NCBI RefSeq assembly: GCF_024436035.1
Contig: NZ_JANFNG010000005.1
Location: 124,001 to 188,000 of the forward strand
Source of the DNA: Streptomyces humicola
GTDB taxonomy: Bacteria > Actinomycetota > Actinomycetes > Streptomycetales > Streptomycetaceae
DNA length: 64,000 nt
Direction of reading: 5' to 3'
Part shown: positions 5,170 to 63,950 of the stretch, piece by piece
How the letters are laid out: every line of letters starts with the position of its first letter
Position numbering within the stretch: the stretch's first letter is position 1
Translations under genes and position numbers: made by a program
Notes under the pieces: generated by a model
What the model saw: only the letters and a program-made list of their open reading frames with translations
The model's database searches: none
Told to the model about the DNA's origin: nothing

Positions 5170-5895
5170 GACGAATGGACCCCCTCGCACGACCGTGTCC
5201 TCGCGCAGCGCCATGCCGAGGGCTGGTTGTTCCTCCTCGAAGCGGCCCGGGACCTGCGCACCACCGGCGCCCTCGCTCCCAGCAGCAGGGCCCTGGCTCG
5301 TGCACTGACCGATCCGGTGCGCGCACAGGCCGAGCGGCCGCTGACCATCTTGGAAGCGGGAGCGGGAACCGGAGCGGTCACCCGCGCCCTGGTCTCCCGG
5401 CTGTCGTCGGGCAGCCGCCTGGACGTGGCCGAGGCCAACCCGCGCTTCACCAACCGTCTGCGGCGCCAGGTGCGCAACCACACGCACCTGGCGCCCGAGC
5501 AGGTCCGCATTCACCAGACCTACGTCGAGCATCTGGACACCGGCAGGCACTACGACGTGATCGTCTCCGGCTTGCCGCTGACCAACTTCACCCCCCGCCA
5601 GGTCGAAGCGATCATGAATCGCTATCTGGAACTCCTACACCCCGGCGGCACCCTGACCTACTTCGCCTACCTCGGCAGCCGACAAGCCCGCACCCTGCTG
5701 GCCTCCCGCACGGAAGCGCGCCGGCACAAGTCCGTCGAAGAGGTGATGGCCGCCTACCAGCGCCAGTACGCCACCGTCTGCTGGACGGTGTGGGCCAACC
5801 TGCCCCCGGCAAGGGTCTGGCAGCTGCAAAGCCCCGCACAGCCGTCATCCCTCAGCCCGGATCCACAGCACGCCCAGAGCGGGACAGGCCGGTGA
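5170..5895 (+). pseudogene. SAM-dependent methyltransferase, 5' end removed by IS
   Basis: About 240 codons of a class I SAM methyltransferase similar to the phospholipid N-methyltransferase-like proteins of actinomycetes. Visible are the leading RTTGALAPSSRALARAL segment, the SAM-binding motif LEAGAGTGAVTRAL, an acidic strand end (LDVAEANPRF) and the motif IVSGLPLTNFTP. There is no in-frame ATG or GTG between the IS end and this homology, so the native start and roughly the first 10-15 residues were lost when the ISL3 element arrived. An internal TTG at 5227 is the only nearby candidate start. The 3' end overlaps the following dedA fragment (GTGA), the normal arrangement for this pair. Confidence 0.75.
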
Positions 5896-11095: not shown

Positions 11096-11139
11096 GAACG
11101 GGTGCTCCATCGGGATCGGATCGGTGTCGGGTGGGATCG

Positions 11140-12666: not shown

Positions 12667-12693
12667 GGGTATCAAGTCCTGATGCCGGGTCTA

Positions 12694-16900: not shown

Positions 16901-17679
16901 TCGGACGTGGTGGTGACGGCGAAGGCGGGGGTGCGCTTCTCACGGAAGGCGCGGGTACCTTCCACCGCGTCGGGACTGCCGAGCGTCTCGTCGGACAGCT
17001 CGGTCAGCGCGTCTCGGACGGCGGCCATCCCGTCGGTACGCAGTCGGGCAGTGGTGAAGCGCTTGGTGCGGCGGATCGCGTCCCGGCTGCCCTCGGCGAT
17101 GGTGGCTGCCAGGGCGTGCGCGGCATCGCCGACCAGGTCGTCGTCGACGACCTGATGCACCAACCCACACCGCAGCGCCGTGTGGGAATCGAGTTCCTGA
17201 GCGGTCAGGGCCAGCAGACCGGCCGGCTTGTGCGCCAGAGTGTAGGGAGCGGCGGCCGCGAACACGGTCGGCCAGACCCCGATCCGGGCCTCCGGTAGCC
17301 GGAAGGCCGCCTTCGTGCCCGCGATGGCGAGGTCACTGACGAGCACGATCTCCGTACCGCCGCCGACGGCCCGGCCGCGAACCGCACTGATCACCGGCAC
17401 CTCGCAGTTCACAATGGCCTCCATCGCCGGCAGCACGAAGCCGAGGAAGTACTCCCGAGCCTCCTGCGGGGTGGCCAGCCGGAAGAACTCGCCGATGTCA
17501 TTGCCAGCACAAAACGCCCGCGGCGAACCGTGCAGCACAACCGCCCGAACCTGTCGGTCGGCACCCGCCTCCTGCAACAGAGCGGCCAAGGATCTCCACC
17601 CGGCGGCGTCCATCGCATGCAGCTTCTCCGGCCGGCCGAACGTGATACGGGCGACCGGCCCCTGTCTGCGCAGGTCCAT
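16389..17679. repeat. 1,291-bp near-identical duplication, copy 1
   Basis: Matches 42851-44141 at a constant offset of 26,462 bases, in the same orientation. By eye I count four differences (near 16420, 16905, 17268 and 17271). It covers the complete enoyl-CoA hydratase gene up to its ATG and the 5' 171 codons of DUF993. This copy is in an intact operon and is likely the source. Confidence 0.93.
16897..17679 (-). CDS. Enoyl-CoA hydratase/isomerase (set I)
   Basis: 260 residues, a typical crotonase monomer length. The two oxyanion-hole segments are present: HGSPRAFCAGNDIGEFF and VRGRAVGGGTEIVLVSDLA. The catalytic-Glu region follows as FRLPEARIGVWPT, which is more like isomerase/hydratase subfamilies with a Glu in the second position. 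It hydrates or isomerises an enoyl-CoA thioester in the cytoplasm. The start has AGGAGAAGAA upstream. It sits third in the operon SDR, CoA-transferase, hydratase, DUF993, isomerase. A copy differing at about three synonymous or conservative positions lies at 43359-44141. Confidence 0.9.
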   Translation of the reverse strand: MDLRRQGPVARITFGRPEKLHAMDAAGWRSLAALLQEAGADRQVRAVVLHGSPRAFCAGNDIGEFFRLATPQEAREYFLGFVLPAMEAIVNCEVPVISAVRGRAVGGGTEIVLVSDLAIAGTKAAFRLPEARIGVWPTVFAAAAPYTLAHKPAGLLALTAQELDSHTALRCGLVHQVVDDDLVGDAAHALAATIAEGSRDAIRRTKRFTTARLRTDGMAAVRDALTELSDETLGSPDAVEGTRAFREKRTPAFAVTTTSE

Positions 17680-33843: not shown

Positions 33844-34308
33844 TCAGGAAGCCGCGGGACCGTCCAGCGTCTCGACAGCGTCCACGAGAGGCGTCAGCCG
33901 GGGATCTTGACTGGCACGGTCAAGGGCCTCGCGCAGTGCCGCATCATGGGTGGGACGCGCCGCGGCGAGCAGGGCGAGCCCGGCCTCGGTGACGTCCGTG
34001 TAGATACCCCGGCGGTCGGTCACGCACAGGTAGCGGGTCAGCAGCCCGCGATCCTCCAGACGCGTGACGAGCCGAGTGGTCGCACTCTGACTGAGCACCA
34101 CCGCGTCGGCGACCTGGTTCATGCGCAGGTGACCGCCCTCACCGCCGTGCTGATGGCTGAGGACATCGAGCAGGGAGTACTCCCGCACACTGAGGTCATG
34201 CCCACTCTGCAGGGCGCGCTCAATGTGCGCCTCGATCCGGCCATGCAAGAGGGAGAGGGCATACCAGCCGTGGACAAGGCCGGTCGCGGCGACGTGCGTG
34301 GCGGTCAT
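33844..34308 (-). CDS. MarR-family transcriptional regulator
   Basis: 154 residues from ATG 34308 with GGAGGG upstream. The winged helix is visible as SVREYSLLDVLSH, MNQVADAVVLSQSATTRLVTRLEDRGLLTR and the beta-hairpin DRRGIYTDVTEAG. MarR proteins are dimeric repressors released by small aromatic or oxidant ligands. The longer open frame to 35079 fuses it artificially with an IS701 remnant. No adjacent target gene is apparent; the MFS exporter 2.5 kb away with its TTGCAAG repeats is a speculative candidate. Confidence 0.85.
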   Translation of the reverse strand: MTATHVAATGLVHGWYALSLLHGRIEAHIERALQSGHDLSVREYSLLDVLSHQHGGEGGHLRMNQVADAVVLSQSATTRLVTRLEDRGLLTRYLCVTDRRGIYTDVTEAGLALLAAARPTHDAALREALDRASQDPRLTPLVDAVETLDGPAAS

Positions 34309-34669
34309 CGTTTCCCTCCTCCGTGACAGCTGAGCACTCCCGTGCAACCCAACACCGTACACACGACAACATACCGCGCATGCAATTAGTAGGCTACGTA
34401 ATGAGGTGAGCTGAGCGGTGGCTCGCGGAGAAGTGCTGCCTGCCCGGAGGAATCCACCGCGGCCGTACTGCTGGCCGCCCGGCGCCTTGCGGTCGCGTGG
34501 CTCCACGGACGTTGCGGCTGACCCTATGCGCTTCGTTATGTCTGTCCTCCCTGCAGCCGCTGTGCAGGCGCAGCACCGACGCCCGACCATGGCCGGCATC
34601 TGACCGACCCTGGCGATGAGGCGGACGAAAGCCATCATGGGCGGGATGGAATCTGGGCTCACCCTGGAG
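34309..34669. other. Intergenic, no recognisable gene
   Basis: 361 bases between the MarR start and the IS701 remnant. The part next to MarR (34330-34410) is AT-richer with TACGTAATGAGG-like sequence and may hold its promoter. I recognise nothing in the rest. Confidence 0.4.
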
Positions 34670-35100
34670 GAGATCGTCTTGCCGTAGCGGCCCAGCCACC
34701 GGCGGCCCACATGCGCGGTCGCTTTACCGTCCTTGCGGTCACCGGAGTCATCGATGACCAGCACACCGCCCTCGTGCGGTGCGGTCGCCGGGTCTGCCAT
34801 CAACAGCTCCAGACGTCGGGCGTTGATGCGTTCGTCGTCCCAACATGACTCGGACAAGAAGAACTGCAGCCGCTGCACCGCCCGGTGTTGTGCTCCGACG
34901 ACCGGTTCGGCGCCTGCCAGACATGTCAGTGTCTTGTTTCGATCCCGCAGCGCGACAACCTCGTCAGGCACTCCCGAAAGAGCCTGCGCTGGGCCAGCGT
35001 GCCGAACAAGTCGTCGAAGCAAGTGGCGTAGTGTTCCAGCGGAACCCGAGCTGGCGGACACCGGTAGACGACCGGCCATGACTCACCGCTACAAACAGTG
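34670..35100 (-). pseudogene. IS701-family transposase, N-terminal remnant
   Basis: Minus-strand frames read LFGTLAQRRLFRECLT and, after a frameshift near 34965, LAGAEPVVGAQHRAVQRLQF, VLVIDDSGDRKDGKATAHVG and RWLGRYGKT. These are consecutive N-terminal segments of IS701-type DDE transposases, the IDDSGDRKDG motif carrying the first catalytic Asp. The remainder of the gene is missing. Confidence 0.7.
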
Positions 35101-40407: not shown

Positions 40408-41412
40408 TCAGGGCAGGATCAGAACCTTGCCGGGGGGCAGAACGCCGGATGCGAGCGCGCGCAGCACCTCGGGCGCCCGATCGAGATCAGTCACGAGTTC
40501 CGTGGGAATTGTGGCGAGTCCGTGCGCGGCCACGAGAAGCGCCGCTTCGTGCAGTTCAGCGGTCGAATAGCAGAATGAGCCGCGGGCCGTCAGCTCCCGA
40601 CGCACGAGCGTCGAGGAGGCCGGGAGCGACCCGCTCGAAGCCAGCCCGACCGTGCACAGCGTGCCGCCACGCCTCAGCCGTGCGAACGCGAGCTCGGCCG
40701 TCTGCAAGGAGCCGACAGTGTCGATACCCAGGTCCCACGGCGCGGTGTCAGCGTCTGCCGGCGATTCGAGCTCGGCGCCGAGCTCGAGCAGAGCCTGTCG
40801 CCGCGCATCGTCGCGTTCGATGACAACGGGCTGCGCGCCGGCCTCGAGGACCACCCGCGCGCAGGCCGCCCCGATCGGGCCGCCGCCGATCACCCCGACT
40901 CGTCGGCCATGCGAGACGCCCGCTCGCCGGCAGGCTCGAATGGCGACGGCGACGGGCTCGACAAGTGCGAGCGCCCGCGGGTCTGTGCCCGCTCCCACCC
41001 GGATCGCCTGAGTCGATGGCATGACGACGCTGGTCTGCATTCCCCCGTCCCGCTCGAAACCCAGCAGTTGGCGCTGCGCGCACGACGCCCGTTCGCCTGA
41101 TCGGCAGTGCTCGCACGTTCCGCAGCTGACGTTCGGGTCTACCGCGACGAGATCTCCCGGTCGCCAGCCGGACGCGCCCGGGCCGACGCCGGTGACGACG
41201 CCGCCGAATTCGTGACCGATCACCACTCCCGGGCGGGTCCTGCCGTCGTTGCCGCGCCACTGTCCGAGGTCGGTCCCGCAGATACCGATCGCGGAGACCT
41301 CGACGAGCAACTGGCCGGCGCCCGGCTGCGGGCAGTGCCGCTCGCTCAGCCGGAGCATGCCTGCACCGTGCCATTCGACTGCGCGGACCGCGGCGGTCGC
41401 AGTCGCGGTCAT
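40408..41412 (-). CDS. Zinc-dependent alcohol/polyol dehydrogenase
   Basis: 334 residues from ATG 41412, which overlaps the flavoprotein stop (ATGA). Medium-chain dehydrogenase: catalytic zinc site GICGTDLGQW and IGHEFGGVV, the four-Cys structural zinc lobe CGTCEHCRSGERASC, and the Rossmann motif GVIGGGPIGAAC. It resembles sorbitol/threonine dehydrogenase types that oxidise secondary alcohols with NAD(P). Second gene of the seven-gene operon. Confidence 0.9.
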   Translation of the reverse strand: MTATATAAVRAVEWHGAGMLRLSERHCPQPGAGQLLVEVSAIGICGTDLGQWRGNDGRTRPGVVIGHEFGGVVTGVGPGASGWRPGDLVAVDPNVSCGTCEHCRSGERASCAQRQLLGFERDGGMQTSVVMPSTQAIRVGAGTDPRALALVEPVAVAIRACRRAGVSHGRRVGVIGGGPIGAACARVVLEAGAQPVVIERDDARRQALLELGAELESPADADTAPWDLGIDTVGSLQTAELAFARLRRGGTLCTVGLASSGSLPASSTLVRRELTARGSFCYSTAELHEAALLVAAHGLATIPTELVTDLDRAPEVLRALASGVLPPGKVLILP

Positions 41413-42764
41413 CGCAGAGCACCCAGGTCCCGGGCTCCGACCGCTGCATCGGCGGCACGGCGGCCGAAAACCAGCCCGAAGACGATGCCGCCGACGTAAC
41501 GCAGGTCCTGCGCGCCGCCGGCGTCGGCTCCCACGGAGAACAGGCCGGGGATGGTCCGGTTGTCCCGGTCGAGCACACGGGCGTCGCCGTCGACGCGAAG
41601 CCCACCGAACGGGATCGTGATGCACGGCTGCACCTCAAGCGCCTGAAACGGCGCCGACGCCAGCGGACTGGGACGCTCCGGCAGCGGCGCGTCGAGCGCT
41701 GCAGTCCCGCCGCCCGAGGCGGCCAACCGGTAGCCCTCCAGCGTCTGCGCAAGCGCCGCCTGATCCACGCCCCAGCCAGCGACGATGCCGACGAGTTCTT
41801 CCAAGGTCGCCGCCTCAGCCGCACGGGCTCCGAGCTTCGCGCCCTCCGCGTATCGGTCTAGGACGATCCCGCTCGGATACGGCGCGGCGAGCGCCCGTTC
41901 CCGCTGCACCGAGTCGTCCCAGATAAGCACGCCGCGGTGCGCGGTCTGCCGCAGCAGCCGCTGGTTGGAGACCTCATCGCCGAGGGACTCGTCGGTGAAT
42001 CGACGTCCCTCGCGGTTGACCAGGATGCCGTACGCCGAGAAGTAGAGCGTCAACCGCAGGAAGACCTCGGGATCGACCGGCAGCGGGCTCGGCAGCGTGT
42101 GTCCATAGAAGGCCGACAGATGCCGGCTGGCCGCCGCGCCCACCGAGGCGCCGAGGCGGAATCCGTCACCGACGGATTCCGGATTGCTACGCACGCCTAT
42201 GCTGTCCGCACCGAAGCCGATGAAGGTCTGCTTGAGTTCGGGGTCACCCTGGAATCCGCCCGTTGCCAGCACCACGGCGTCCGACTCAATCTGCGCTCGC
42301 TGCCCTGCCTGGACGTACCCCATGCCCGAGATGCGCCCATCGCGCCGAGTCAAGGTCACGTCGGACACCTGCGTGCGCACCGCTCCGCCCGAGGCGACGA
42401 CCTTGGAGGCCCAGACCTCGAACAGAGCCTTCACGTCGATCTTGCAGGCCCGCCCCCATTCCAGATGGTCTGTCCACTCCTGACTCACCGAGACGCCCGC
42501 GTCGCGTACATCCGCGACGGCCTGCTCATAGCCTTCGACCACCAGCGGGCCGAGCACGGGATCGCCGTCCGGCTGAATGCGCCGCAGGACCTCGAGATCC
42601 GGCGCTGTCCAAAGGATGCCCGCCGACAGCGCAGCGGAGCCTCCGACCTGCACCGCTTTCTCAAGCACCAGCACCCGCGCACCGAGATCGACGGCGCGGT
42701 TTGCCGTGGCGAGCCCAGACGCTCCGCCTCCGACGACGACGAGATCGAACCGGTCTTCTGTCAT
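41409..42764 (-). CDS. FAD-dependent oxidoreductase, fumarate reductase/ketosteroid-dehydrogenase type
   Basis: 451 residues from ATG 42764 (GAGGGTGG upstream). The N-terminal FAD-binding motif DLVVVGGGASGLATANRA is followed by LVLEKAVQVGGSA and the second dinucleotide segment DAVVLATGGFQGDPE. The C-terminal FAD segment is RTIPGLFSVGADAGG then YVGGIVFGLVFGRRAADAA. This family catalyses C-C bond dehydrogenation or reduction (fumarate, urocanate, 3-ketosteroids). First gene of the seven-gene operon, downstream of two LacI-type operators. The substrate is unknown. The frame continues to 42812 but without a ribosome site. Confidence 0.87.
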   Translation of the reverse strand: MTEDRFDLVVVGGGASGLATANRAVDLGARVLVLEKAVQVGGSAALSAGILWTAPDLEVLRRIQPDGDPVLGPLVVEGYEQAVADVRDAGVSVSQEWTDHLEWGRACKIDVKALFEVWASKVVASGGAVRTQVSDVTLTRRDGRISGMGYVQAGQRAQIESDAVVLATGGFQGDPELKQTFIGFGADSIGVRSNPESVGDGFRLGASVGAAASRHLSAFYGHTLPSPLPVDPEVFLRLTLYFSAYGILVNREGRRFTDESLGDEVSNQRLLRQTAHRGVLIWDDSVQRERALAAPYPSGIVLDRYAEGAKLGARAAEAATLEELVGIVAGWGVDQAALAQTLEGYRLAASGGGTAALDAPLPERPSPLASAPFQALEVQPCITIPFGGLRVDGDARVLDRDNRTIPGLFSVGADAGGAQDLRYVGGIVFGLVFGRRAADAAVGARDLGALR

Positions 42765-42791
42765 ACTGGCCACCCTCTTCGTTGAATCCGG

Positions 42792-42847
42792 ACAACGTTT
42801 GCCGCAAAACAAAATGAGCGTGCAAGAGTGGAGGTAAACGTTTGCCG
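42792..42847. promoter_or_regulatory. Pair of LacI-type operators for the seven-gene operon
   Basis: ACAACGTTTGCCGC (42792-42805) and TAAACGTTTGCCGTG (42835-42849) are direct repeats 43 bp apart, close to four helical turns. The second contains the perfect palindrome AAACGTTT. They lie 28-85 bp upstream of the flavoprotein start, and the far one abuts the boundary of the duplicated block. Confidence 0.7.
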
Positions 42848-42850
42848 TGC

Positions 42851-43362
42851 AGTGCGCGGCTGGCCATGATCACCGGTGTTGCGGCGGCGTCCTCGGCAAC
42901 GGACAGCTGCTCGAGGTAGGCGACCGTCACCTGGTCAAGCGTCGGGGCCGGCGCGGTCAGCTGGTCGGTGGCGACACCGGCGACGATCCTGCCGCCGACC
43001 GAGCGGGCCTCGGCCGCGGAGCGCCGGATCAACTCCGCAGCGGTGGGCCAGTCCAGGCCCATTCCACGCTGGGCGGTGTCCATGGCCTCAGCGACGCCGA
43101 AGCCCCATCGCCACAGCTCGTGCCGGAAGGCGAGGGTGCGCTCCCAATCCAGGACAGCAGGCGACCCAGGGGTGTTCTCCGCGTACGGATCGGCGACCAC
43201 ATGCGCCGCCGCGTAGGCAATGCGGCTGTGGAAGCCGGACGCTGGCGGGGCGAACTCCCCCGGGACGCCGAGGGTGTACGGCTCGGTCCCACCGCCGGGA
43301 ACCGGAAGGGGGAGGGTATGGGGCACAAGCAGCTCCTGGAGATCAGAATCAATGGGGATCAG
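42851..43362 (-). pseudogene. Truncated second copy of the set I DUF993 gene
   Basis: Near-identical to the first 171 codons of the gene at 15701-16900. It is interrupted at 42850, where unrelated sequence carrying a LacI-type operator begins. The GTG start of the parent gene is CTG here because of a G-to-C change on the coding strand, so translation initiation is also compromised. The frame then reads nonsense across the flavoprotein promoter. A remnant carried along with the enoyl-CoA hydratase copy. Confidence 0.88.
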
Positions 43363-44141
43363 TCGGACGTGGTGGTGACGGCGAAGGCGGGGGTGCGCTT
43401 CTCACGGAAGGCGCGGGTACCTTCCACCGCGTCGGGACTGCCGAGCGTCTCGTCGGACAGCTCGGTCAGCGCGTCTCGGACGGCGGCCATCCCGTCGGTA
43501 CGCAGTCGGGCAGTGGTGAAGCGCTTGGTGCGGCGGATCGCGTCCCGGCTGCCCTCGGCGATGGTGGCTGCCAGGGCGTGCGCGGCATCGCCGACCAGGT
43601 CGTCGTCGACGACCTGATGCACCAACCCACACCGCAGCGCCGTGTGGGAATCGAGTTCCTGAGCGGTCAGGGCCAGCAGACCGGCCGGCTTGTGCGCCAG
43701 AGTGTAGGGAGCGGCGGCCGCGAACACAGTGGGCCAGACCCCGATCCGGGCCTCCGGTAGCCGGAAGGCCGCCTTCGTGCCCGCGATGGCGAGGTCACTG
43801 ACGAGCACGATCTCCGTACCGCCGCCGACGGCCCGGCCGCGAACCGCACTGATCACCGGCACCTCGCAGTTCACAATGGCCTCCATCGCCGGCAGCACGA
43901 AGCCGAGGAAGTACTCCCGAGCCTCCTGCGGGGTGGCCAGCCGGAAGAACTCGCCGATGTCATTGCCAGCACAAAACGCCCGCGGCGAACCGTGCAGCAC
44001 AACCGCCCGAACCTGTCGGTCGGCACCCGCCTCCTGCAACAGAGCGGCCAAGGATCTCCACCCGGCGGCGTCCATCGCATGCAGCTTCTCCGGCCGGCCG
44101 AACGTGATACGGGCGACCGGCCCCTGTCTGCGCAGGTCCAT
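43359..44141 (-). CDS. Enoyl-CoA hydratase/isomerase, duplicate copy (set II)
   Basis: 260 residues, identical to the protein at 16897-17679 except that the last residue is Asp rather than Glu (as far as I can see). All crotonase motifs are intact. Upstream of the ATG the sequence is new and carries its own GGAGGG ribosome site, so the duplicate is equipped for expression. It lies 109 bp downstream of the butanediol-type dehydrogenase and in the same direction as the EtfBA genes, the place where a beta-oxidation-like operon would need a hydratase. Confidence 0.9.
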   Translation of the reverse strand: MDLRRQGPVARITFGRPEKLHAMDAAGWRSLAALLQEAGADRQVRAVVLHGSPRAFCAGNDIGEFFRLATPQEAREYFLGFVLPAMEAIVNCEVPVISAVRGRAVGGGTEIVLVSDLAIAGTKAAFRLPEARIGVWPTVFAAAAPYTLAHKPAGLLALTAQELDSHTALRCGLVHQVVDDDLVGDAAHALAATIAEGSRDAIRRTKRFTTARLRTDGMAAVRDALTELSDETLGSPDAVEGTRAFREKRTPAFAVTTTSD

Positions 44142-44250
44142 CGTTCCCTCCAGGTGGTGCTCGGCGAGAGTTAGTGGCCAAAGGTGGTGAGCACGCCGGG
44201 CCTTCCACGCGGTGGCAAAGGCGGCGTGAGCACCGGTTCTGGCAGCGTCG

Positions 44251-45315
44251 TCATCGCGGCCGCACCAGGATCTTCACCTGGTCTCCGGTGCCGTCGACGA
44301 GGGCTTGGAAGCCTTCCGCAATCAAGTCGTCCAAGTCGATGCGCTTGGTGATGAACTGCTCGACCGACAGCTTGCCTTTGCGTAGGAGGTCGATAACTGG
44401 CTGGTGGTCACCGGCGTAGCAGATGGTGCCTACCAGTCGCACCTCCTTGAGGACGATGGGGAGCATGTCGAGAGTCGCGGGGTGCCCCCAGATGGCGACG
44501 TTGACGACCGTGCCCCGCGCTTTGACGGCGTTGACGCAGCTGGCCAGCGCGGCATTGGCCCCGGCGCACTCAAAGGCGACGTCGGCCCCGGTGCCGCCGG
44601 TCAGCTCTTGGATGCGCTCGTCCACGTTCTCATTACGGGGGTCAAGGATGACGTCAGCTCCCGCACCGAGCGCTCGTTGCCGACGTGCTGCGGACGGTTC
44701 GACGACGGTGACGTGAGCAGCGCCGGTCGCCTTGAGCACGGCGGTGATCAATAGCCCGATCGGACCGGCGCCGAATACAACCGCGTTGTCACCCGGGGCC
44801 ATCCCTGCCCTGCCGACGGCATGGTGCGCGACGGAAAGCGGCTCGACCAGCGCACCGACTTGGCTCGGCAGATCCCCCAGGGAGTACACCAGATGGCGGT
44901 CGACGACGACGTACTCGGCCAGGCCGCCGCCCCCGCCTGCCAACCCGATGGTCGCGGCCTGCTGACAGCTGTTGTGGTGGCCAGCCGTACACGGGGGGCA
45001 CGTCCCGCACACGATCCTGGGTTCCACGGTGACGCGCTCGCCAAGGTTGAGGCCTTTGACGTCGGCCCCCAGCTCGACGAGTGTCCCGACGAACTCGTGG
45101 CCCAGGACGACCGGGGAGGTCTCCTGGGTCAGCGGATGCGGCTCGTGGGGCGTCGGACAGAAAATCGGGCCGTGCAGGTACTCGTGCAAGTCGGTTCCGC
45201 AGATGCCGCACCACTCGATCTTGATCTTCACGGCGCCCGGTCGTATGGACGGTTCCGGGACGTCCTCGATGCGTACGTCGCCTCGTTGGTGGAATCGAGC
45301 CGCCTTCATGCCCAT
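44251..45315 (-). CDS. Zinc alcohol dehydrogenase, (R,R)-butanediol dehydrogenase type
   Basis: 354 residues. Medium-chain dehydrogenase with catalytic zinc ligands in CGICGTDLHEYLHGP and VLGHEFVGTLVELG. The structural zinc lobe is CGTCPPCTAGHHNSC and the Rossmann motif VVFGAGPIGLLITAVL. The long HGPIFCP insertion is typical of bacterial 2,3-butanediol dehydrogenases. It oxidises a secondary alcohol or diol with NAD. The start could be ATG 45315 or ATG 45309. It lies 90 bp downstream of etfA. Confidence 0.88.
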   Translation of the reverse strand: MGMKAARFHQRGDVRIEDVPEPSIRPGAVKIKIEWCGICGTDLHEYLHGPIFCPTPHEPHPLTQETSPVVLGHEFVGTLVELGADVKGLNLGERVTVEPRIVCGTCPPCTAGHHNSCQQAATIGLAGGGGGLAEYVVVDRHLVYSLGDLPSQVGALVEPLSVAHHAVGRAGMAPGDNAVVFGAGPIGLLITAVLKATGAAHVTVVEPSAARRQRALGAGADVILDPRNENVDERIQELTGGTGADVAFECAGANAALASCVNAVKARGTVVNVAIWGHPATLDMLPIVLKEVRLVGTICYAGDHQPVIDLLRKGKLSVEQFITKRIDLDDLIAEGFQALVDGTGDQVKILVRPR

Positions 45316-45405: not shown

Positions 45406-46377
45406 TCAACTCGTGCGGCCACCGATCTCTTGCGTGGCCTGGGGTAGGACAACGAACAGGTCTCCGACCACGCCGAAGTCGGCCAGCTCGAAGATCGGCG
45501 CCTCCGGGTCCTTGTTGACCGCCACGATGGTCTTGGAGGTCTGCATCCCGGCCCGGTGCTGGATCGCTCCGGAGATCCCGGCGGCTACGTACAGCTGTGG
45601 CGAGACCTGCTTGCCGGTCTGACCCACTTGTTGGGCGTGCGGGTACCAGCCGGCGTCCACTGCCGCCCGGGAGGCGCCCACCGCCGCTCCCAGGGCGTCG
45701 GCCAACCCCTCGACCACCGCAAAGCCCTCCGGGCCGCCCACCCCGCGGCCGCCGGAGACCACGATCGCGGCCTCGGTCAGCTCTGGCCGGCCACTGGAGA
45801 CGCGCGGGGCGCGGGAGACCACCTTGGTGCCAGTGACGGTGGGCGAGAAGGCCACCGTGACGTGCTCGACCGCACCCGGGGCTGCGGCTGGCTCGGGGCT
45901 GGTGGCGTTGGGCTTGATCGCAATCACCGGGATGCCGCGGGTGACGATAGAGGTGACAGTGAAAGAGGCGGCGAAGGCCGACTGGGTCGCCACCGGCGAC
46001 CCGTCCTCACCGGCGGTGACGTCCACGGCGTCGGTGAGCAGGCCCGAGCCCAGCCGCAGCGCGGTCCGTGCCGCTACCTCCTTGCCCTCCCCTGAGGCGG
46101 TGACTAGCACCGCCGCCGGGTTGGCCTGCTGGGCGATCTGGGTTAGGGCGTCCACTTTGGGCACCACCAAGTACCCGGCGAACTCCGGCGCGTCGGCGAC
46201 GTATACCTTCACTGCGCCGTACTCGCCGAGCCTCGCGGCGATGTCGGCGGCGGTCTCACCGGCGCCGAGGACGACCGCGGAGGCCTCGCCGAGGCGGCTG
46301 GCGAGGGTCAGTAGCTCCAGGGTCGGCTTGCGGACCGCCCCGTCCGCGTGGTCGACCAAGACGAGGACTTCAGCCAT
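45406..46377 (-). CDS. etfA: Electron transfer flavoprotein alpha subunit
   Basis: 323 residues from ATG 46377 (the frame extends five codons further). The C-terminal FAD-binding signature is [20 protein letters not shown] with the preceding VGQTGKQ, and [14 protein letters not shown] lies in the domain hinge. With EtfB it accepts electrons from acyl-CoA dehydrogenase and passes them towards the quinone pool. It is 36 bp downstream of etfB. This is likely a second, pathway-specific pair beside the housekeeping ETF every streptomycete is expected to have. Confidence 0.93.
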
Positions 46378-46413
46378 GTTGGATGTCTCCAAAGGGGTGC
46401 GGGTGGGTAAGGG

Positions 46414-47211
46414 TTAGATGAACTTCTGCTCGGCGAGAAACGCGGCGAGCTGCTTACCGCCCTCGCCCTCGTCCTTGACCACCGTGCCAGCACTGCGGGC
46501 AGGGCGGGCGGCCACCGCCTCGACGGCCGTGCACGCCCCGGCCAGGCCCACCTGCTCGGCCTCGATGTCCAGGTCCGACAGGTCCCAGGTTTGGATCACC
46601 TTCTTCTTGGCGGCCATGATGCCCTTGAAGGAGGGGTAGCGCGCCTCGCCGGACTGGTCGGTCACCGACACCACCGCCGGCACGGCGGCCTGGAGCTGCT
46701 CGGTCGCGGCATCCCCGTCCCGGCGAGCGGTGACGGTGCCGCCATCGACCGCCACCTCCGACAGGAGCGTCACTTGCGGAATGCCCAGGCGTTCGGCCAA
46801 CAGCGCGGGAAGGATCCCCGTGGCGGCGTCGGTGGAAGCCATGCCGCACATCACCAGGTCAAACCCGGCCTTGGCGAGCGCCTTGGCCAGGATCAGCGAG
46901 GTGCCGAGGACATCGGAGCCGTGGATCGCCTCGTCCTTTACGTGGATGGCCTGGTCGGCGCCCATCGACAAAGCCTTGTGCAGCGCGTCATTGGCGCCGT
47001 CCGGGCCCACCGTCAGCACGGTAATCTCCGCGTCGCCAGAGACCTCGGCGATGCGCAGCGCCTGCTCCAGGCCGTACTCATCCAGCTCGGACAGCAGCCC
47101 GTCCACGGCTTCCCGGTCGGTGGTGTAATCCTCCGCGAAGCGACGATCGCCGCTCGCGTCGGGCACGTACTTCACACAGACAACGATCCTCAAACTCACG
47201 GTTGTCTTCAC
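46414..47211 (-). CDS. etfB: Electron transfer flavoprotein beta subunit
   Basis: 265 residues, usual length. N-terminal RIVVCVKYVPDASGDRRF, LDEYGLEQALRIAE, the AMP-binding LVMCGMASTDAATGILPALL and the recognition-loop region ARYPSFKGIMAAKKK. Partner of the adjacent EtfA. It starts a unit etfB-etfA-adh-ech that lies 298 bp downstream of the acyl-CoA dehydrogenase gene, its expected redox partner. Confidence 0.93.
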   Translation of the reverse strand: MKTTVSLRIVVCVKYVPDASGDRRFAEDYTTDREAVDGLLSELDEYGLEQALRIAEVSGDAEITVLTVGPDGANDALHKALSMGADQAIHVKDEAIHGSDVLGTSLILAKALAKAGFDLVMCGMASTDAATGILPALLAERLGIPQVTLLSEVAVDGGTVTARRDGDAATEQLQAAVPAVVSVTDQSGEARYPSFKGIMAAKKKVIQTWDLSDLDIEAEQVGLAGACTAVEAVAARPARSAGTVVKDEGEGGKQLAAFLAEQKFI

Positions 47212-47509
47212 CTTCCAGCAGTCTTCTTCGCCATATGCGACGGTTTCGCAGGAACGCTATTCGTAATGCGCGTGGCGCCGCGCGCATGTAGCGCGCACAG
47301 TTAAGAGTCTTATCAGCAGTGCCGATTTAGGTGCCAGGCATGGCACCCTGCCGAAGCCCGCTTTGGTGCGCCGGTTCGTGATCCGCTCTCACTCAAAGTG
47401 AAACTCAAGAGGAACGGTTCTTCGCTATGATTGCTCCGCCGCGTCTGCGCACCTGGCCCCAACGGCGAATTCTCGCCTGCCACGATGAATCGACATATAG
47501 CATGCACGA
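47212..47509. other. Intergenic region upstream of etfB
   Basis: 298 bases without a supportable gene. It holds a short perfect hairpin GGTGCCA-GGCA-TGGCACC (47330-47347), which may end the acyl-CoA dehydrogenase transcript, and AT-richer sequence likely to be the etfB promoter. No LacI operator of the type seen elsewhere is evident. Confidence 0.4.
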
Positions 47510-48667
47510 TCAACGCAGGAGAGACCTGCTGATGATAAGTCGCTGGACCTCACTGGTGCCCTCGTAAATGGTGGTGATGCGGGCGTCGCGGTAAAGGCGT
47601 TCTGCCTCGACGCCCCGGATGTAACCGCTGCCGCCCAGGATCTGTACGGCCCGTGAGGTGGTGCGGATGCTGGCCTCCGAGGCGAACAGCTTGGCCATGG
47701 AGCAGGCCATTCCGGCAGGCTCGCCACGGTCAAGGAGTTCGGCGCCGCGGCGCAGGAGCAGCCTCGCTGCCTCGTAGTCGGTGGCCATGTCGGCGAGAGT
47801 GAAGGCAACCGCCTGGAACTGGCCGATCGGCTGCCCGAACTGCGTGCGGGACTGCGCGTGTTCGCGCGCGGTGTCCAACGCCGCCCGGGAGATCCCGTTG
47901 GCCAGCGCGCCGATGCCCAGTCGGCCCTTCTCCAGTACCTGGAGTACCGCCGAGAACCCCGCACCCTCTGCGCCCAGCAGCGCGTCCGCTGGAAGCCGTA
48001 CGTCCGAGAAGATGAAGCCCCCGACCGGCGATGCCTTCTGGCCCATCTTCTTCTCGTGGTAGGCGCGCTGCACTCCGGGCAGGTCGGCCTCGACCAGGAA
48101 CATGGACATGCCGCCGCGCTTGCCCTTGTCCGGGTCGGTGACGGCGAGCACCATGGCGAAGTCCGCGACCGGGGCGTTGTGGATGAATATCTTTTCCCCG
48201 TTCAGGATCCAGTCATTGCCGTCCTTGCGTGCGGTGGTCTTCAGCCCGCCCAGGTCGGAGCCCGCTCCAGGCTCGGTCAACGCATAGGAGCAGCGTGTCG
48301 TTCCCGCGAGCAGGCCAGGGAGGTAGGTGGCCTTTTGCTGTTCGCTGCCGAAGGTGGCCAGCAGGGAGCCGACAAGCTCGACCAGTCCGCACTGGTCGGC
48401 GACGCTCGCGTAGCCGTAGGAGAGCTCTTCCATGACGCTGACGTAGTCGGTGACCGTGCCACCGGATCCGCCGTCGGTCTCGGGTATGGTGATGCCGAAG
48501 AGCCCGAGCTGCCCCATGTGCTCGTAGATCTCACTCGGGAATCGCTCGGTGGCGTCCAGGTCTTCGGTGACGGGGCGAATTCTCTTGGTCGCGAACTCGC
48601 GTACCATCATGGTGAGCTCATCGTGATGGTCGCTTCCGCTGCCCGTGGCGAGGGCGATCGTGGTCAT
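47510..48667 (-). CDS. Acyl-CoA dehydrogenase
   Basis: 385 residues. FAD-binding ALTEPGAGSDLGGLKTTA, substrate/FAD region WILNGEKIFIHNA, and the catalytic base Glu near residue 369 in TTIYEGTSEVQRLIISRSLL. It introduces a double bond alpha-beta to a CoA thioester and hands electrons to ETF. It lies 45 bp downstream of a CoA-transferase gene that presumably makes its substrate, and upstream of etfBA. Set I has no acyl-CoA dehydrogenase, so set II is the more complete beta-oxidation-like route. Confidence 0.93.
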   Translation of the reverse strand: MTTIALATGSGSDHHDELTMMVREFATKRIRPVTEDLDATERFPSEIYEHMGQLGLFGITIPETDGGSGGTVTDYVSVMEELSYGYASVADQCGLVELVGSLLATFGSEQQKATYLPGLLAGTTRCSYALTEPGAGSDLGGLKTTARKDGNDWILNGEKIFIHNAPVADFAMVLAVTDPDKGKRGGMSMFLVEADLPGVQRAYHEKKMGQKASPVGGFIFSDVRLPADALLGAEGAGFSAVLQVLEKGRLGIGALANGISRAALDTAREHAQSRTQFGQPIGQFQAVAFTLADMATDYEAARLLLRRGAELLDRGEPAGMACSMAKLFASEASIRTTSRAVQILGGSGYIRGVEAERLYRDARITTIYEGTSEVQRLIISRSLLR

Positions 48668-48712
48668 GGTTTTTCCCTGGTTCCTTGACGGTTGTCCGGT
48701 CTTGAGGTGGGG

Positions 48713-50341
48713 TCACGCAGAGCCGGGCGTTGCGCCCACCGTGGACCGGGAGGGTTCGCTGCGGTCGTGCATGGCAGGCCACAGTGGCCCGTTGCTGAAG
48801 ACGGCCGGGGGCATGGGACGCAGGGCTCCGATCTCGGGAGCGAAGTCCATGTGTGCCAGCACGTCCCGCTCGACGTCCAGGCCTTCCGCGACCTCGGTGA
48901 GCACCGGGCCGTTTTCGCCGAGTTCGAAGACAGCGCGCTCGGTCACGTACAGCACCTGCTGGCCTTCCTCGCGGGCCGTCCTCGCGGAGAAGGTCACTTC
49001 GTCGACCTTGCCGACGAACTTGCGCAGGCTGCCTTCCTGCTTGACGAGCAGCCTTCCGCCGGCTGCTTTGGCTTGCAATCCGCGGGCGGTGAACGTGCCG
49101 CAGAACACAACCTTGCGCGCGCCGCTGACGATGTTGATGAAGCCGCCGGGACCAACCACTACACCACCGACTCGGCTGACGTTGACGTTTCCGAACTGGT
49201 CGACCTCGGCCATACCCAGCGCGGTGAGATCGAGTATCCCGGCGGCGAAGAAGTCGAATTGAGTCGTGGAGGGAACGACGGCGAACGGTGCGCGGCTCAG
49301 GCCGAACAGTGGTCCGCTTTCCGGAGTTCCCCCGGTAGCGCCCTGTTCGATGCATAGATCGACGTCGTCCAGTCGATCATGCTGGGCCAGGACGTCGACC
49401 ACGCCTGCACTCATCCCGAACCCGACGTTGACCACCGATCCGGGCACCACCTCCAGGGCCGCTCGACGAGCGACCATCGCCCGCGCGTCGAGCACCGTGC
49501 CGCCCCCGTCCGGGGGGGCCAGCAGCGCGCCGTCGGAACGGGCAGGTGCCGGCCGGAAGCGTCCGCTCAGCGCCGGGTCGTACTCGGCCGCGTAGGTCTG
49601 CCATTGCCCGGGGTGAGGCACGACGACGTCGACCATGGGAGAAGGGAGGTGGACGAGGCGCGGGTCGAGTGACCCCTGGGCCCCCAGCCGCTTCACCTGA
49701 ACGATCACCCGGCCACCATTGCCCCGGGCGGCTATCGCCACCGCCTGGACGTCCAGAAGCGACGCTTCGTCCTCCAGACTCACGTTGCCGCGCTCATCGG
49801 CGATGGTGCCGCGTACGATGCCCACATCCACCCGCAGCGGGCGGTAGCGCAGATACTCCATGCCGTCGAACTCGACCAGTTCGACGATCTCCTCCGTCGC
49901 GGCGTCGTTGAGCTTGCCGCCAGAGTTTCGCGGATCGACGAAGGTACCGATGCCGACCCTGGTCAGCAGGCCTGGACGACGTGCTCCGCTCTCGCGCAGC
50001 AACGCGCTGATCACACCGGCAGGCAGCGAATAGGCCTCCATCCGATTCTCCCGTGCCAGCTCCTGCATCGGCCGCGACCACGTCCAGTGCCCCCCGATCA
50101 CGCGGCGCACCAGGCCCTCGTGCGCGAACCGATTGATGCCGCGTTCCGCGTTGTCCCCCAGTCCGAGGGCGTGCACGAGGGTGATGCCGCGGGGATGTCC
50201 GGAGCGCAGGAACCGCCGCTCGACAGCCTGGAACACCGCATCCGACTCGAGGATTCCACCACCTGAGCCGGTGACAGCGACCACGGCACCGTCAGGAATC
50301 CGGGCGGCCGCCGCGTCCGCATCGAGCACTGCCGAGTTACC
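48713..50341 (-). CDS. Acyl-CoA:acetate/3-ketoacid-type CoA-transferase (set II)
   Basis: 542 residues from ATG 50341 with GAGGAG upstream. Paralogue of 17698-19272 with the same architecture: VAVTGSGGGILESDAVFQ at the N-terminus, HWTWSRPMQELARENRMEAY in the first half, catalytic Glu332 in CIEQGATGGTPES and VVGPGGFINIVSGARKV in the second half. It activates a carboxylate by CoA transfer. It lies 14 bp downstream of its SDR partner. Confidence 0.9.
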   Translation of the reverse strand, partial: GNSAVLDADAAAARIPDGAVVAVTGSGGGILESDAVFQAVERRFLRSGHPRGITLVHALGLGDNAERGINRFAHEGLVRRVIGGHWTWSRPMQELARENRMEAYSLPAGVISALLRESGARRPGLLTRVGIGTFVDPRNSGGKLNDAATEEIVELVEFDGMEYLRYRPLRVDVGIVRGTIADERGNVSLEDEASLLDVQAVAIAARGNGGRVIVQVKRLGAQGSLDPRLVHLPSPMVDVVVPHPGQWQTYAAEYDPALSGRFRPAPARSDGALLAPPDGGGTVLDARAMVARRAALEVVPGSVVNVGFGMSAGVVDVLAQHDRLDDVDLCIEQGATGGTPESGPLFGLSRAPFAVVPSTTQFDFFAAGILDLTALGMAEVDQFGNVNVSRVGGVVVGPGGFINIVSGARKVVFCGTFTARGLQAKAAGGRLLVKQEGSLRKFVGKVDEVTFSARTAREEGQQVLYVTERAVFELGENGPVLTEVAEGLDVERDVLAHMDFAPEIGALRPMPPAVFSNGPLWPAMHDRSEPSRSTVGATPGSA

Positions 50342-50355
50342 CATGCCGCCGCTCC

Positions 50356-51126
50356 TCACCGGACACTCATGCCGCCGTCGACGGTGACCACTGAACCGGT
50401 CGCGAAGGAAGACTCATCGCTGGCCAGGAAGAGTGCGGCCGCCGCGATCTCCTCCGGCCGGCCGAGCCGCCCGAGCAGCTGGCGGTCAGCCAGCGATCGA
50501 CGGAACTCCTCCGATGCCGCGTCACCTGGCGCGATCTTGGAGAAGTACGGCGAGTCCGTGGTTCCCGGGGAGACCGCGTTGACTCGGATCCCCTGCACGG
50601 CGTGATCAACCGCCATTGCCCGGGTCAGCCCCACGACCGCGGCTTTGGTCGCGCAGTAGGCGGCTCGCTCGGCCATACCGATCTCACCGGCGACCGAGGC
50701 GATGTTCACGATCGAACCCCGCCCCGCCTTGATCATCACCGGGAGCACGGCCCGGCATCCGAGGTAGACACCTGTCACGTTCGTTCCGAACAGGGCTTCC
50801 CACGCCTGCGGGTCCGTGTCGAGCACGGTGCCGGCCAGCCCGTAGCCCGCGTTGTTGACGAGCACATCGATCCGGCCGAACCGGTCGACGACGCGGTCGG
50901 CCAGGGCGCTCCACGCGGCGGCGTCGGCGACGTCCCCGGCCACGGCGATATGCGGCGCGCCAGCACGCTCCAACTCTGCCCGGGCGGTGGCCACTTCATC
51001 TTCGTCGAGCGAGAGCACCGCGATCGCGGCGCCCTCGGCTGCGAACACCCTGGTGATCGCCTGACCGATCCCCGAGGTGCCCCCGGTGATCACACAGACC
51101 TTGTCACGCAGTCGTCCGACGGGCAT
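50356..51126 (-). CDS. Short-chain dehydrogenase/reductase (set II)
   Basis: 256 residues from ATG 51126 (AAAGGAG upstream). Classical SDR with TGGTSGIGQ, VLVNNAGYGLAGT, NIASVAGEIGMAERAAYCAT with the Tyr/Lys pair, and a C-terminal FATGSVVTVDGGMSVR. Strongly similar to 19269-20030 over its length, including the unusual GMAERAAYCATKAA stretch. First gene of the SDR - CoA-transferase - acyl-CoA dehydrogenase operon, with two LacI-type operators upstream. Confidence 0.92.
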   Translation of the reverse strand: MPVGRLRDKVCVITGGTSGIGQAITRVFAAEGAAIAVLSLDEDEVATARAELERAGAPHIAVAGDVADAAAWSALADRVVDRFGRIDVLVNNAGYGLAGTVLDTDPQAWEALFGTNVTGVYLGCRAVLPVMIKAGRGSIVNIASVAGEIGMAERAAYCATKAAVVGLTRAMAVDHAVQGIRVNAVSPGTTDSPYFSKIAPGDAASEEFRRSLADRQLLGRLGRPEEIAAAALFLASDESSFATGSVVTVDGGMSVR

Positions 51127-51142
51127 CACCACACTCCTTTCG

Positions 51143-60331: not shown

Positions 60332-60485
60332 ACCTGAACCGGATGGTTGGCTGGCCAGGCCGCCGCACGCCGGAGCCAAATCTCGCGACGCACTGAGTCA
60401 CACGCCGGAGCCTTGCCTCGCGGCGCGCTGAGGCAGGAGCACCGAACTGAATCGCACTGACAGGCATGACAGGCAGGAGTCTTTG

Positions 60486-62006
60486 ATGAGGGTTACCGCA
60501 TCGTCTCTCCATCCCACTACCTCCGGCCCCGGTGGTCCGCGCGTGTACGGGCACTACATCGACGGTGCCTTCACCGACCCTTCCCTTGATCGTGTTCAGC
60601 GCCGCGCGCCAGGCACGGGCCTCGTCGTCGCGGAATACTCCCGGGGCACCGCCCAGGACACCGAGCGCGCCATCACCTGCGCGAGGCGCGCGTTCGACCA
60701 CGGACCGTGGCCACAGTGGTCCGGCATCGAGCGCGCCCGAGTGTTGCTCGCTCTCGCCGACCTCGTTCGGCAGAACAAGGAACGGCTGGCCAGGCTGGAG
60801 GCGGAGGAGGTCGGCAAGCCGCTGCGCCTGGCCGTAGGCGACGTCGACGGAAGCGTGGGGCTGATCGAATACGCCGCGTCGCTGGCCATGTCGATGCATG
60901 GCGATGTCCACACCAACCTCGGCAGCGACTTCACCGCCTTCGTCGCGCGCGAGCCGGCCGGGGTGATCGGCATGATCACCCCGTGGAACTTTCCGCTGCT
61001 GCTGCTGGCGCAGAAGCTTCCATTCGCGCTCGGAGCGGGCTGCACCGCGGTCGTGAAGCCCTCCGAGCTCACCGCCAGCAGCACCCTCGAGATCGCCCGG
61101 CTGGCCCAGGAGGCGGGCGTCCCGGACGGCGTGATCAACGTCGTCACCGGCAGAGGCAGCGTGGTCGGGCAGCACATCGCCGAATCCGTACAGGTCGACG
61201 TGGTGTCCTTCACCGGCAGCACCGAGGTGGGCCGGCGCATCGTCACGGCCTCGCAGTCCAACCTCAAGCGGCTCTCGCTTGAGCTGGGCGGCAAGGCGGC
61301 GAACATCGTGCTCCCGGACGCCGACCTTGAGGACGCCCTGGACGGCGTGATGTTCGGCGTGTACTTCAACAACGGCGAATGCTGCGTATCGGGGGCCCGA
61401 CTGCTGATCGCGGAGCAGGTGGCCGACGAGTTCCTCGACGAGCTGATCGCCAGGACAGCCCGGCTCCGCGTCGGCCAGCCCCTCGAGGAGAACACCGACA
61501 TCGGAGCGCTGATCCACGAGGACCACCTCGCCACAGTCCTGGAGTACATCGAGTCGGCGGACGCGGACGGCGCGGCCGTCCGCACGGGTGGGTCACGGCT
61601 GACCAGCGAGCCGTTCGCCGCCGGAACGTTTCTGGCGCCGACGGTCCTGGACCAGGTGGCACCTACGGCACGCGTGTTCCGAGAGGAGATCTTCGGACCG
61701 GTCCTCTCCGTGACGCGGTTCCGCGACCTGGACGAGGCGATCGCGCTCGCAAACTCCGTCGACTACGGGCTCGCCAACTCGGTGTGGACGAAGGACATCG
61801 ACAAGGCGCTCACCGCCTCGCGGGCTCTGCGCAGCGGCACGGTCTGGGTGAACACCACCATCGACGGCGCCCCGCAGCTGCCGGGCGGAGGGGTGAAGAT
61901 GAGCGGCTACGGCCGCGAGATGGGACAGGTCGGCTTCGACGAATTCACCGAGGTCAAGACAGTGCAGATCCGGACCGGCAGGCGAACTCCGTTCTTCGGG
62001 GCATGA
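60486..62006 (+). CDS. NAD(P)-dependent aldehyde dehydrogenase (set II)
   Basis: 506 residues from ATG 60486 (AGGAG nine bases upstream). Paralogue of the ALDH at 11140-12666: [55 protein letters not shown] with the base Glu, and [13 protein letters not shown] with the catalytic Cys. Both paralogues end in a (R/P)TPFF or PPFF tail. It oxidises the aldehyde produced by the next gene, a GMC oxidoreductase, 330 bp downstream. Confidence 0.93.
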   Translation: MRVTASSLHPTTSGPGGPRVYGHYIDGAFTDPSLDRVQRRAPGTGLVVAEYSRGTAQDTERAITCARRAFDHGPWPQWSGIERARVLLALADLVRQNKERLARLEAEEVGKPLRLAVGDVDGSVGLIEYAASLAMSMHGDVHTNLGSDFTAFVAREPAGVIGMITPWNFPLLLLAQKLPFALGAGCTAVVKPSELTASSTLEIARLAQEAGVPDGVINVVTGRGSVVGQHIAESVQVDVVSFTGSTEVGRRIVTASQSNLKRLSLELGGKAANIVLPDADLEDALDGVMFGVYFNNGECCVSGARLLIAEQVADEFLDELIARTARLRVGQPLEENTDIGALIHEDHLATVLEYIESADADGAAVRTGGSRLTSEPFAAGTFLAPTVLDQVAPTARVFREEIFGPVLSVTRFRDLDEAIALANSVDYGLANSVWTKDIDKALTASRALRSGTVWVNTTIDGAPQLPGGGVKMSGYGREMGQVGFDEFTEVKTVQIRTGRRTPFFGA

Positions 62007-62336
62007 CCGCAGCGTCGCCGGGCGTCGCGCAGCACGACGGCGCGTGAGCAAGTGCTTCCTGAGTCGGAAGCCACCCTTGCCTGCGGGTTGAGGCGCTGCT
62101 ACGGTCGTGAAAACGCTTTCTGGATCTACTGGGCACGAACCCGCTCAGGTCGCCCCGTGTCGGTCGCACGTGGTCGTGACCGCGGCTGGAAGAAGCCCCG
62201 AAGGCGATGGCCGCGCCCGCCTCCGTGCCGCGCCGCCCGCCGGACAGCCAAGCCCCAACTACCGAATTCGAGTCACACCGGTTCGGCACCCGTATGCCGA
62301 ACGAGTGAATACGTCGAACAATCGAGGAAGTGTTCC
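62007..62336. other. Intergenic region between ALDH2 and GMC2
   Basis: 330 bases without a supportable gene. It contains the LacI-type operator at 62109-62120, so the GMC gene probably has its own promoter here rather than depending only on ALDH2 read-through. Confidence 0.55.
62109..62120. promoter_or_regulatory. LacI-type operator before GMC2
   Basis: GAAAACGCTTTC, arms GAAA/TTTC inverted around ACGC. It lies about 217 bp upstream of the GMC2 start codon. Confidence 0.65.
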
Positions 62337-63950
62337 ATGGCACAGCAGGGTGACACGTTCGATTATGTCATCGCAGGCGGGGGGACGGCGGGATGTGTCC
62401 TGGCCAGCCGCCTCAGCGCGGATCCCTCCGTGCGGGTTCTGCTCCTTGAAGCGGGGCGCTCCGACTGGCATCCCTTCATTCACGTGCCAGCCGGATTCGC
62501 CAAGCTCACGGCCGGGCCCTATCAGTGGGGGTTCGTCAGTCTGCCTCAAGAGCACTGCGGAGGGCGGGAGATCCCTCTGGCGCAGGGCAAGGTCCTCGGC
62601 GGTGGTGGTTCGATCAACGCGCAGGTCTTCACCCGGGGCGTCGCCCAGGACTACGACGAGTGGGCCGGTGCATACGACTGCGAAGGGTGGACCGCCAAGG
62701 AGATACAGAAGTACTTCGTGCGGTCCGAAGGCAACGAGCGGCTGTCCGGACCGCTGCACGGCTCCACTGGCCCCCTCGCGGTCTCCGACCTGGTCAACCC
62801 GCACCCGCTGTCCAAGGCCTTCGTCCGCGCCGGCCAGGAGTTCGGGCTGCCCTACAACAGCGACTTCAACGGCGAGCGGCAGCACGGCATCGGGTTCTAC
62901 CAGACCACCACCAGGAACTCGCGCCGCTGCAGCGCCGCGGTCGGCTACCTCCGCCCCGCTCGCCACCGGAAGAACCTCACGATCAAGACGGGGCCGCTGG
63001 TCAGGCGAGTGATCCTGGACAAGGACCGCGCCGTCGGGGTGGAAGTCATCGAGGCAGGCACGGTGCGCCAGTACACCGCCCAGCGGGAGGTGATCGTGGC
63101 ATCGGGCGCTTTCGGCTCGCCGAAGATCCTGCAGCTGTCCGGCATCGGCGATCCCGCCGACCTCAAGCAGGCGGGGATCGCGACCGTGCACGCGCTGCCC
63201 GGCGTGGGCAAGAACCTGCAGGACCACTGCGACCTGGACATCGTCTACGAGCTGACCTCGTACCAGAGCATGGACCGCTACCAGCGGCCGCTGCCCGCCA
63301 CCGCGGCCGCCGCCCTGCAGTACGCCGCCTTCCGCCGCGGACCGCTGGCGTCGACCGTCGTGGAGGCCGGCGGCTTCGGCTGCGGCAACGCAGAGGACTC
63401 CAGCCCGGACCTGCAGTTCCATTTCCTCCCGGCCGCCGGCGTGGAGGCGGGCATCGCAGCCGTGCGCCCCGGCTACGGGTGCACCCTCAACTCCTACTTC
63501 CTGCGGCCGCGCAGCCGCGGCACGGTACGGGTGGCCAGCGCTGACCCGCTTCAGGCGCCGCTCATCGACCCCAACTACCTCGCCGACGACTACGACCTGG
63601 AGATGGCAATCGAGGGCGTACGGCAGAGCCGCCAGATCATGGAGCAGCCGTCGATGGCACCCCACATCAAGGCCGAGCATCTTGCTGGTGGCCAGGCAGT
63701 GGAGACCAAGGACGACTACATCGCCTTCGTGCGCCGGCATGGGCGGACCGCTTACCACCCAGTGGGCACCTGTGCCATGGGGACCTCGGACCAGGCGGTG
63801 GTCTCCCCGCGCCTGCAGGTGCACGGACTGCGCGGCCTGCGGGTGGTGGACGCCTCGATCATGCCGCGCATCGTCAGCTCCAACACCCAGGCGCCGACCG
63901 TGATGATCGCAGAGAAGGCCGCGGACCTGATCCTCGAGGACGCCCGCTGA
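62337..63950 (+). CDS. GMC-family FAD alcohol oxidoreductase (set II)
   Basis: 537 residues from ATG 62337 (GAGGAAG upstream). Paralogue of the enzyme at 9488-11095, with [67 protein letters not shown], the active-site His in AYHPVGTCAMG and the C-terminal [20 protein letters not shown]. The set I enzyme has HH where this one has HP at the active-site pair. It oxidises a primary alcohol to the aldehyde handled by ALDH2. Confidence 0.92.
   Translation: MAQQGDTFDYVIAGGGTAGCVLASRLSADPSVRVLLLEAGRSDWHPFIHVPAGFAKLTAGPYQWGFVSLPQEHCGGREIPLAQGKVLGGGGSINAQVFTRGVAQDYDEWAGAYDCEGWTAKEIQKYFVRSEGNERLSGPLHGSTGPLAVSDLVNPHPLSKAFVRAGQEFGLPYNSDFNGERQHGIGFYQTTTRNSRRCSAAVGYLRPARHRKNLTIKTGPLVRRVILDKDRAVGVEVIEAGTVRQYTAQREVIVASGAFGSPKILQLSGIGDPADLKQAGIATVHALPGVGKNLQDHCDLDIVYELTSYQSMDRYQRPLPATAAAALQYAAFRRGPLASTVVEAGGFGCGNAEDSSPDLQFHFLPAAGVEAGIAAVRPGYGCTLNSYFLRPRSRGTVRVASADPLQAPLIDPNYLADDYDLEMAIEGVRQSRQIMEQPSMAPHIKAEHLAGGQAVETKDDYIAFVRRHGRTAYHPVGTCAMGTSDQAVVSPRLQVHGLRGLRVVDASIMPRIVSSNTQAPTVMIAEKAADLILEDAR

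Follow-up and report, generated by a model that had tools for sequence, protein, structure and literature searches.

Evidence for a recent intragenomic duplication of an enoyl-CoA hydratase gene and the start of its DUF993 neighbour in Streptomyces humicola

Introduction

Healing of chromosomal breaks in Streptomyces ambofaciens has been described to capture endogenous fragments of 30 bp to 18.8 kb (PMC5869714). With respect to gene content, the inositol-to-propionate genes of Anaerostipes (PMC8355322) comprise CoA-transferase, hydratase, acyl-CoA dehydrogenase and Etf classes, as does the locus analyzed here, and in S. iranensis and S. sabulosicollis, which have the nearest orthologues, a hydratase-DUF993-TIM barrel string is formed by orthologous genes (78–82% protein identity) in the same order as in our locus. 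A broader set, composed of CoA-transferase, acyl-CoA dehydrogenase, DUF993, TIM-barrel (AP_endonuc_2), SDR, GMC oxidoreductase, aldehyde dehydrogenase and sugar-type ABC transporter genes, recurs in Actinobacteria and Burkholderiales and looks like a widespread catabolic pathway; our literature searches returned no paper on this gene combination and none naming DUF993.

Here, we analyze a stretch of 64,000 nucleotides of S. humicola (the window), in which a block of the gene cluster termed set I occurs again, about 26,000 bases away, in the related cluster termed set II. All genes of interest lie on the minus strand, as follows:

15701–16864, minus: intact DUF993 gene of set I (PF06187, E 4.7e-181), conserved start GTG at 16864
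16389–17679, minus: copy I, the block inside the set I operon, from pairwise comparison of both copies
16897–17679, minus: hydratase of copy I (ECH_1, E 6.7e-47), starting 18 bases past the CoA-transferase I stop codon
17698–20030, minus: SDR and CoA-transferase I, standing in the window where the hydratase would have its own promoter and leader
41409–42764, minus: FAD-dependent oxidoreductase (FAD_binding_2), first gene of its operon, adjoining copy II
42661–43326, minus: DUF993 fragment of copy II (PF06187 profile positions 3–156 of 382), translated over the junction
42765–42850, minus: promoter region in front of the FAD-oxidoreductase operon, containing two operator-like sites centred on AACGTT (42794 and 42837)
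42851–44141, minus: copy II, the whole duplicated block, 99.7% identical to 16389–17679 and gap-free
43359–44141, minus: hydratase of copy II (260 aa, crotonase family), from translation
44142–44250, minus: copy II leader, containing the ribosome site CTGGAGG; its last 25–30 nt resemble the native hydratase leaders of relatives
44251–45315, minus: Zn-dependent dehydrogenase (ADH_N, ADH_zinc_N), closing the dehydrogenase/Etf string and lying upstream of copy II
45406–51132, minus: set II core, with SDR, CoA-transferase II, acyl-CoA dehydrogenase, EtfB and EtfA (domain matches)

Extent and content of the duplicated block

The first-pass annotation had described the two blocks as identical except for about four bases, and alignment confirmed exactly four substitutions and no indels over 1,291 bp, in direct orientation (plus strand, copy I/copy II: 16422/42884 C/G, 16900/43362 C/G, 17266/43728 G/A and 17269/43731 C/G). 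The block starts at the hydratase ATG and ends in the interior of the DUF993 gene, with not a single matching base past either end. It thus holds the complete enoyl-CoA hydratase gene and the opening 158 codons of its DUF993 neighbour, and this truncated portion, 476 bp of the block, had been omitted from the annotation.

The two hydratases differ in a single residue, the last one (E in copy I, D in copy II). Membership in the crotonase family is indicated by the ECH_1 match of the copy I protein and by matches to PDB crotonases down to E 2e-29, and no NCBIfam model was matched at its cut-off. The catalytic glutamates of rat enoyl-CoA hydratase are E144 and E164; the GGGTE (E110) and LPEA (E130) segments of the present protein fit the motifs around such residues and may correspond to them.

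The DUF993 fragment of copy II is composed of the 158 native codons from the conserved GTG, followed by 63 codons that run over the junction and end inside the FAD-oxidoreductase gene, and it is probably a dead by-product. The GTG at 16864 (43326 in copy II) is preceded by a ribosome site common to Wenjunlia, S. iranensis and S. sabulosicollis, and is on this comparison the likely start of the gene. We considered that the start was lost in copy II by the change of GTG to CTG at 43362 and rejected this, as translation more likely begins at the conserved GTG located 36 bases downstream: the longer reading frame from 16900 is not the likely start, and therefore the fragment is not inactivated by the change at that position.

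Both copies lie, each with unique flanks, on one contig of 274,998 bp (C55) without N runs, and no third copy was found in the 7.07-Mb genome (78 contigs), in which the block otherwise matches only a DUF993 paralogue of 73% identity on contig C7 and, weakly, DUF993_II within the window itself. In a survey of the 275-kb contig the two copies were the sole pair above 99% identity; other long pairs were 72–91% identical, and one 379-bp pair at the contig end reached 96%. A false second copy made by the assembly is extremely improbable, given that the copies are told apart by four differences and that both have unique flanks in the same contig, even if repeats of 1.3 kb are hard for short reads and the assignment of the middle differences to one copy or the other is not guaranteed.

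Other repeats were also observed in this region. A tandem pair of about 1.19 kb with 88% identity lies just beyond the window (C55:194402-196839), and two old paralogous pairs of GMC oxidoreductase and aldehyde dehydrogenase genes (9488–12675 and 60483–63950, in opposite orientation; DNA identity 76% and 72.5%) stand at the region's two ends, both pairs being present in S. iranensis.

Age and direction of change

The two hydratase genes are separated by a dS of 0.0095 and a dN of 0.0018, to be compared with a dS of 0.64–0.74 between copy I and its nearest orthologues, in S. iranensis and S. sabulosicollis, and with 0.16–0.23 for the hydratase among Streptomyces species. Therefore, the pair is about 17 to 78 times younger than those splits, unless its age was reset by conversion. 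Of the four differences, three arose in copy II, namely two adjacent silent codons and a Gly to Ala replacement in the DUF993 fragment, and the remaining one, in the last hydratase codon, looks like a change in copy I; both copies would therefore have been altered since the split. The dS values, and the finding that set I holds the complete version and set II the truncated one, bear out the annotators' proposal of a recent duplication or gene conversion. Judged from the sequences, the recent intragenomic duplication is real and well dated, and it is an ordinary, documented kind of event.

The locus in related genomes

An alignment of three CoA-transferases served as query and gave 80 named loci, among which the nearest comparable clusters are those of S. 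samsunensis, S. iranensis, S. endocoffeicus, Streptomyces sp. HNM0575, S. antioxidans, S. sabulosicollis, Wenjunlia and Planosporangium. The single-copy state, for which a check in relatives had been proposed, was found in S. iranensis, S. antioxidans and S. sabulosicollis, each with one hydratase orthologue (78–79% protein identity). At E 1e-45 none was detected in S. samsunensis, S. endocoffeicus, HNM0575 and Planosporangium, all of which have a set II-like cluster; a hydratase search of 395 genomes of the family returned only the window's own, and one genome of the same genus had neither hydratase nor CoA-transferase. Wenjunlia retains the hydratase as a decayed remnant, which has lost about 450 bp internally and is still placed before an intact DUF993 gene. 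The decayed hydratase is accompanied by a leftover C-terminal piece of EtfA (C20:22488-22800 and 5454-5729), and Wenjunlia is a case of the same pathway losing parts.

The gene order in S. iranensis is FADox (the FAD-oxidoreductase) - ADH - MFS - TIM barrel - SDR - hydratase - DUF993 - TIM barrel - ROK - Gig2-like - AldDH - GMC - SSF symporter, followed by a module of CoA-transferase II, acyl-CoA dehydrogenase, transporter, Etf and Zn-dehydrogenase. In the window, set I reads hydratase, intact DUF993, TIM-barrel gene and then a convergent ROK regulator, and the order hydratase-DUF993-TIM barrel-ROK-AldDH-GMC-SSF is common to both genomes, the window's Gig2-like gene being elsewhere. Since the window retains the hydratase-to-symporter half at set I, the set I location is the conserved one.

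The CoA-transferase II module precedes the FAD-oxidoreductase operon in the window, and it is precisely at this rearranged junction that copy II lies, with the Zn-dehydrogenase gene on one side and the operon's promoter on the other. The Zn-dehydrogenase and FAD-oxidoreductase genes are adjacent in no relative examined, and a hydratase behind the former was likewise seen in none of them. Among the eight relatives, only S. iranensis and S. sabulosicollis have orthologues of the FAD-oxidoreductase, and in both the hydratase belongs to the same FADox-ADH-MFS string. AACGTT-centred sites also precede the FAD-oxidoreductase in these two species, together with a divergent LacI-family gene, which is missing at this place in the window. 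At 33844–35079, immediately downstream of the SDR whose S. iranensis counterpart stands ahead of the hydratase, lies a remnant that matches a DDE transposase and carries a MarR domain; it may have been left by the event that broke up the ancestral string.

The leader and the edge at the ATG

A different, good ribosome site in front of copy II had been reported, and the calculated duplexes with the 16S tail agree: copy II reaches -10.6 kcal/mol, stronger than copy I (-7.6 kcal/mol), with the orthologues at -9.3 kcal/mol. In the relatives, a promoter and a leader stand before the hydratase; copy I instead starts close behind CoA-transferase I. When the 25–30 bases before the ATG were compared with the leaders of four relatives, copy II scored better than all but 3 of 177 ribosome-site starts on the contig (top 1.7%), and with the ribosome site removed it still surpassed all but 2 of the 177, copy I being unremarkable. 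This comparison was devised after the sequences had been seen, and the likeness is therefore only suggestive. No source of the copy II leader was found elsewhere in the genome, and the spacer after CoA-transferase I had no match in distant relatives.

The ATG had been taken as one boundary of the duplication. Identity does stop exactly there; as the edge of the duplicated piece the ATG holds less well, since the leader of copy II resembles native ones. The edge may instead have arisen later, in set I, when the CoA-transferase gene displaced the leader of copy I. In this case, the duplicated piece would have carried its own leader, and the sharp edge would have been made in set I on arrival of the CoA-transferase gene.

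The same edge and the native-like leader are accounted for by gene conversion, in which set II already had an older hydratase-DUF993 piece and a recent conversion from set I homogenized the shared coding stretch, the edges being the ends of homology. HNM0575, with DUF993 directly behind the Zn-dehydrogenase, is in keeping with such an older piece. We regard this alternative as unlikely, because identity is even along the full shared length to both ends, no relative with two hydratases was found and two events are required. Outside the shared tract, no homologous sequence was detected at either end of the copy pair.

A collapsed tandem duplication would also explain the native-like leader. Here, in an ancestor of the S. 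iranensis type, a duplication ended in DUF993 and restarted at the FAD-oxidoreductase promoter, and the first copy later kept only leader, hydratase and DUF993 piece; the junction between this piece and the promoter is the one expected from duplicating the S. iranensis order. This account is very unlikely, as it needs a large later deletion and, in the short time since the split, the gain of CoA-transferase I and about 15 kb, and any direct repeat can be written in this manner.

Proposed mechanism of the duplication

We consider it probable that the pair arose by a recent segmental duplication within the genome, which brought about re-association or a change of dosage and not a new function. 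The piece would comprise the hydratase gene, probably preceded by a short leader and ribosome site of its own, and DUF993 up to codon 158, and its joining, which needed no homology, would have placed it between the Zn-dehydrogenase gene and the FAD-oxidoreductase operon promoter. Transfer mediated by an insertion sequence (IS) or by repeats was rejected: no IS, transposase, target-site duplication, terminal or flanking repeats or microhomology was found at the copy II junctions. With a Ku gene present in the genome, and with the precedent of S. ambofaciens, this favours the end-joining repair of a double-strand break, capturing a chromosomal fragment, as the most likely route.

The AACGTT-centred sites start a few bases past the junction and were left whole by it. 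The outcome would be intact operators for the FAD-oxidoreductase and a translatable hydratase, with read-through possible from the Etf/dehydrogenase operon. Some points count against this reading. A randomly inserted fragment is unlikely to begin precisely at the start codon with a usable ribosome site already in front of it, unless its leader was carried along. One of the four differences is a copy I change. No close relative shows an empty site, so that insertion is not seen directly.

Function and comparison with known systems

Set I is devoid of acyl-CoA dehydrogenase and Etf, and set II has no other hydratase within the window. Recruitment of a hydratase into a pathway that lacked one, as earlier proposed, is nevertheless not supported as stated: four set II-like clusters do without a close hydratase, and the relatives already carry theirs in the FAD-oxidoreductase gene string, which therefore argues for re-association or dosage. 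A need of set II for a hydratase is likewise not supported, since relatives with one CoA-transferase set have one hydratase in a neighbouring operon or none of this kind. Copy II probably adds dose and puts the hydratase under set II expression; in the 109-bp gap between Zn-dehydrogenase and hydratase no terminator-like or sigma-70-like site was found, which allows read-through from the Zn-dehydrogenase, though it does not prove it. Operon re-assembly in progress, in which the hydratase was split from the ancestral FAD-oxidoreductase string and copied back beside it with its own leader, the original being rewired behind a separately acquired CoA-transferase, is quite unlikely.

Segmental duplication as favoured here provides a clean and dateable natural case in which a second operon received a copy of a bacterial gene, the truncated neighbour being the scar and the regulatory sequence of the landing site unbroken, and the pair is suited for testing whether dose or a new expression programme is the reason why such copies persist. 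As for mechanism, it offers nothing beyond what is known for Streptomyces.

Compared with the strings of S. iranensis and S. sabulosicollis, which are single-copy, have their own promoter and leader and are part of a FADox-ADH-MFS string, copy I stands behind a CoA-transferase. The set II acyl-CoA dehydrogenase scores best with the acryloyl-CoA reductase model, below its cut-off; the Anaerostipes genes serve anaerobic gut fermentation and include iol genes, whereas the window, without iol genes, has GMC oxidoreductase, aldehyde dehydrogenase, DUF993 and sugar-type transport genes (PMC8355322). As in S. ambofaciens (PMC5869714), a chromosomal piece was apparently joined without need of homology, in a genome that has Ku; there, capture was induced and observed in the laboratory, whereas in the window it is deduced from sequence, and the piece contains a complete gene with a usable ribosome site.
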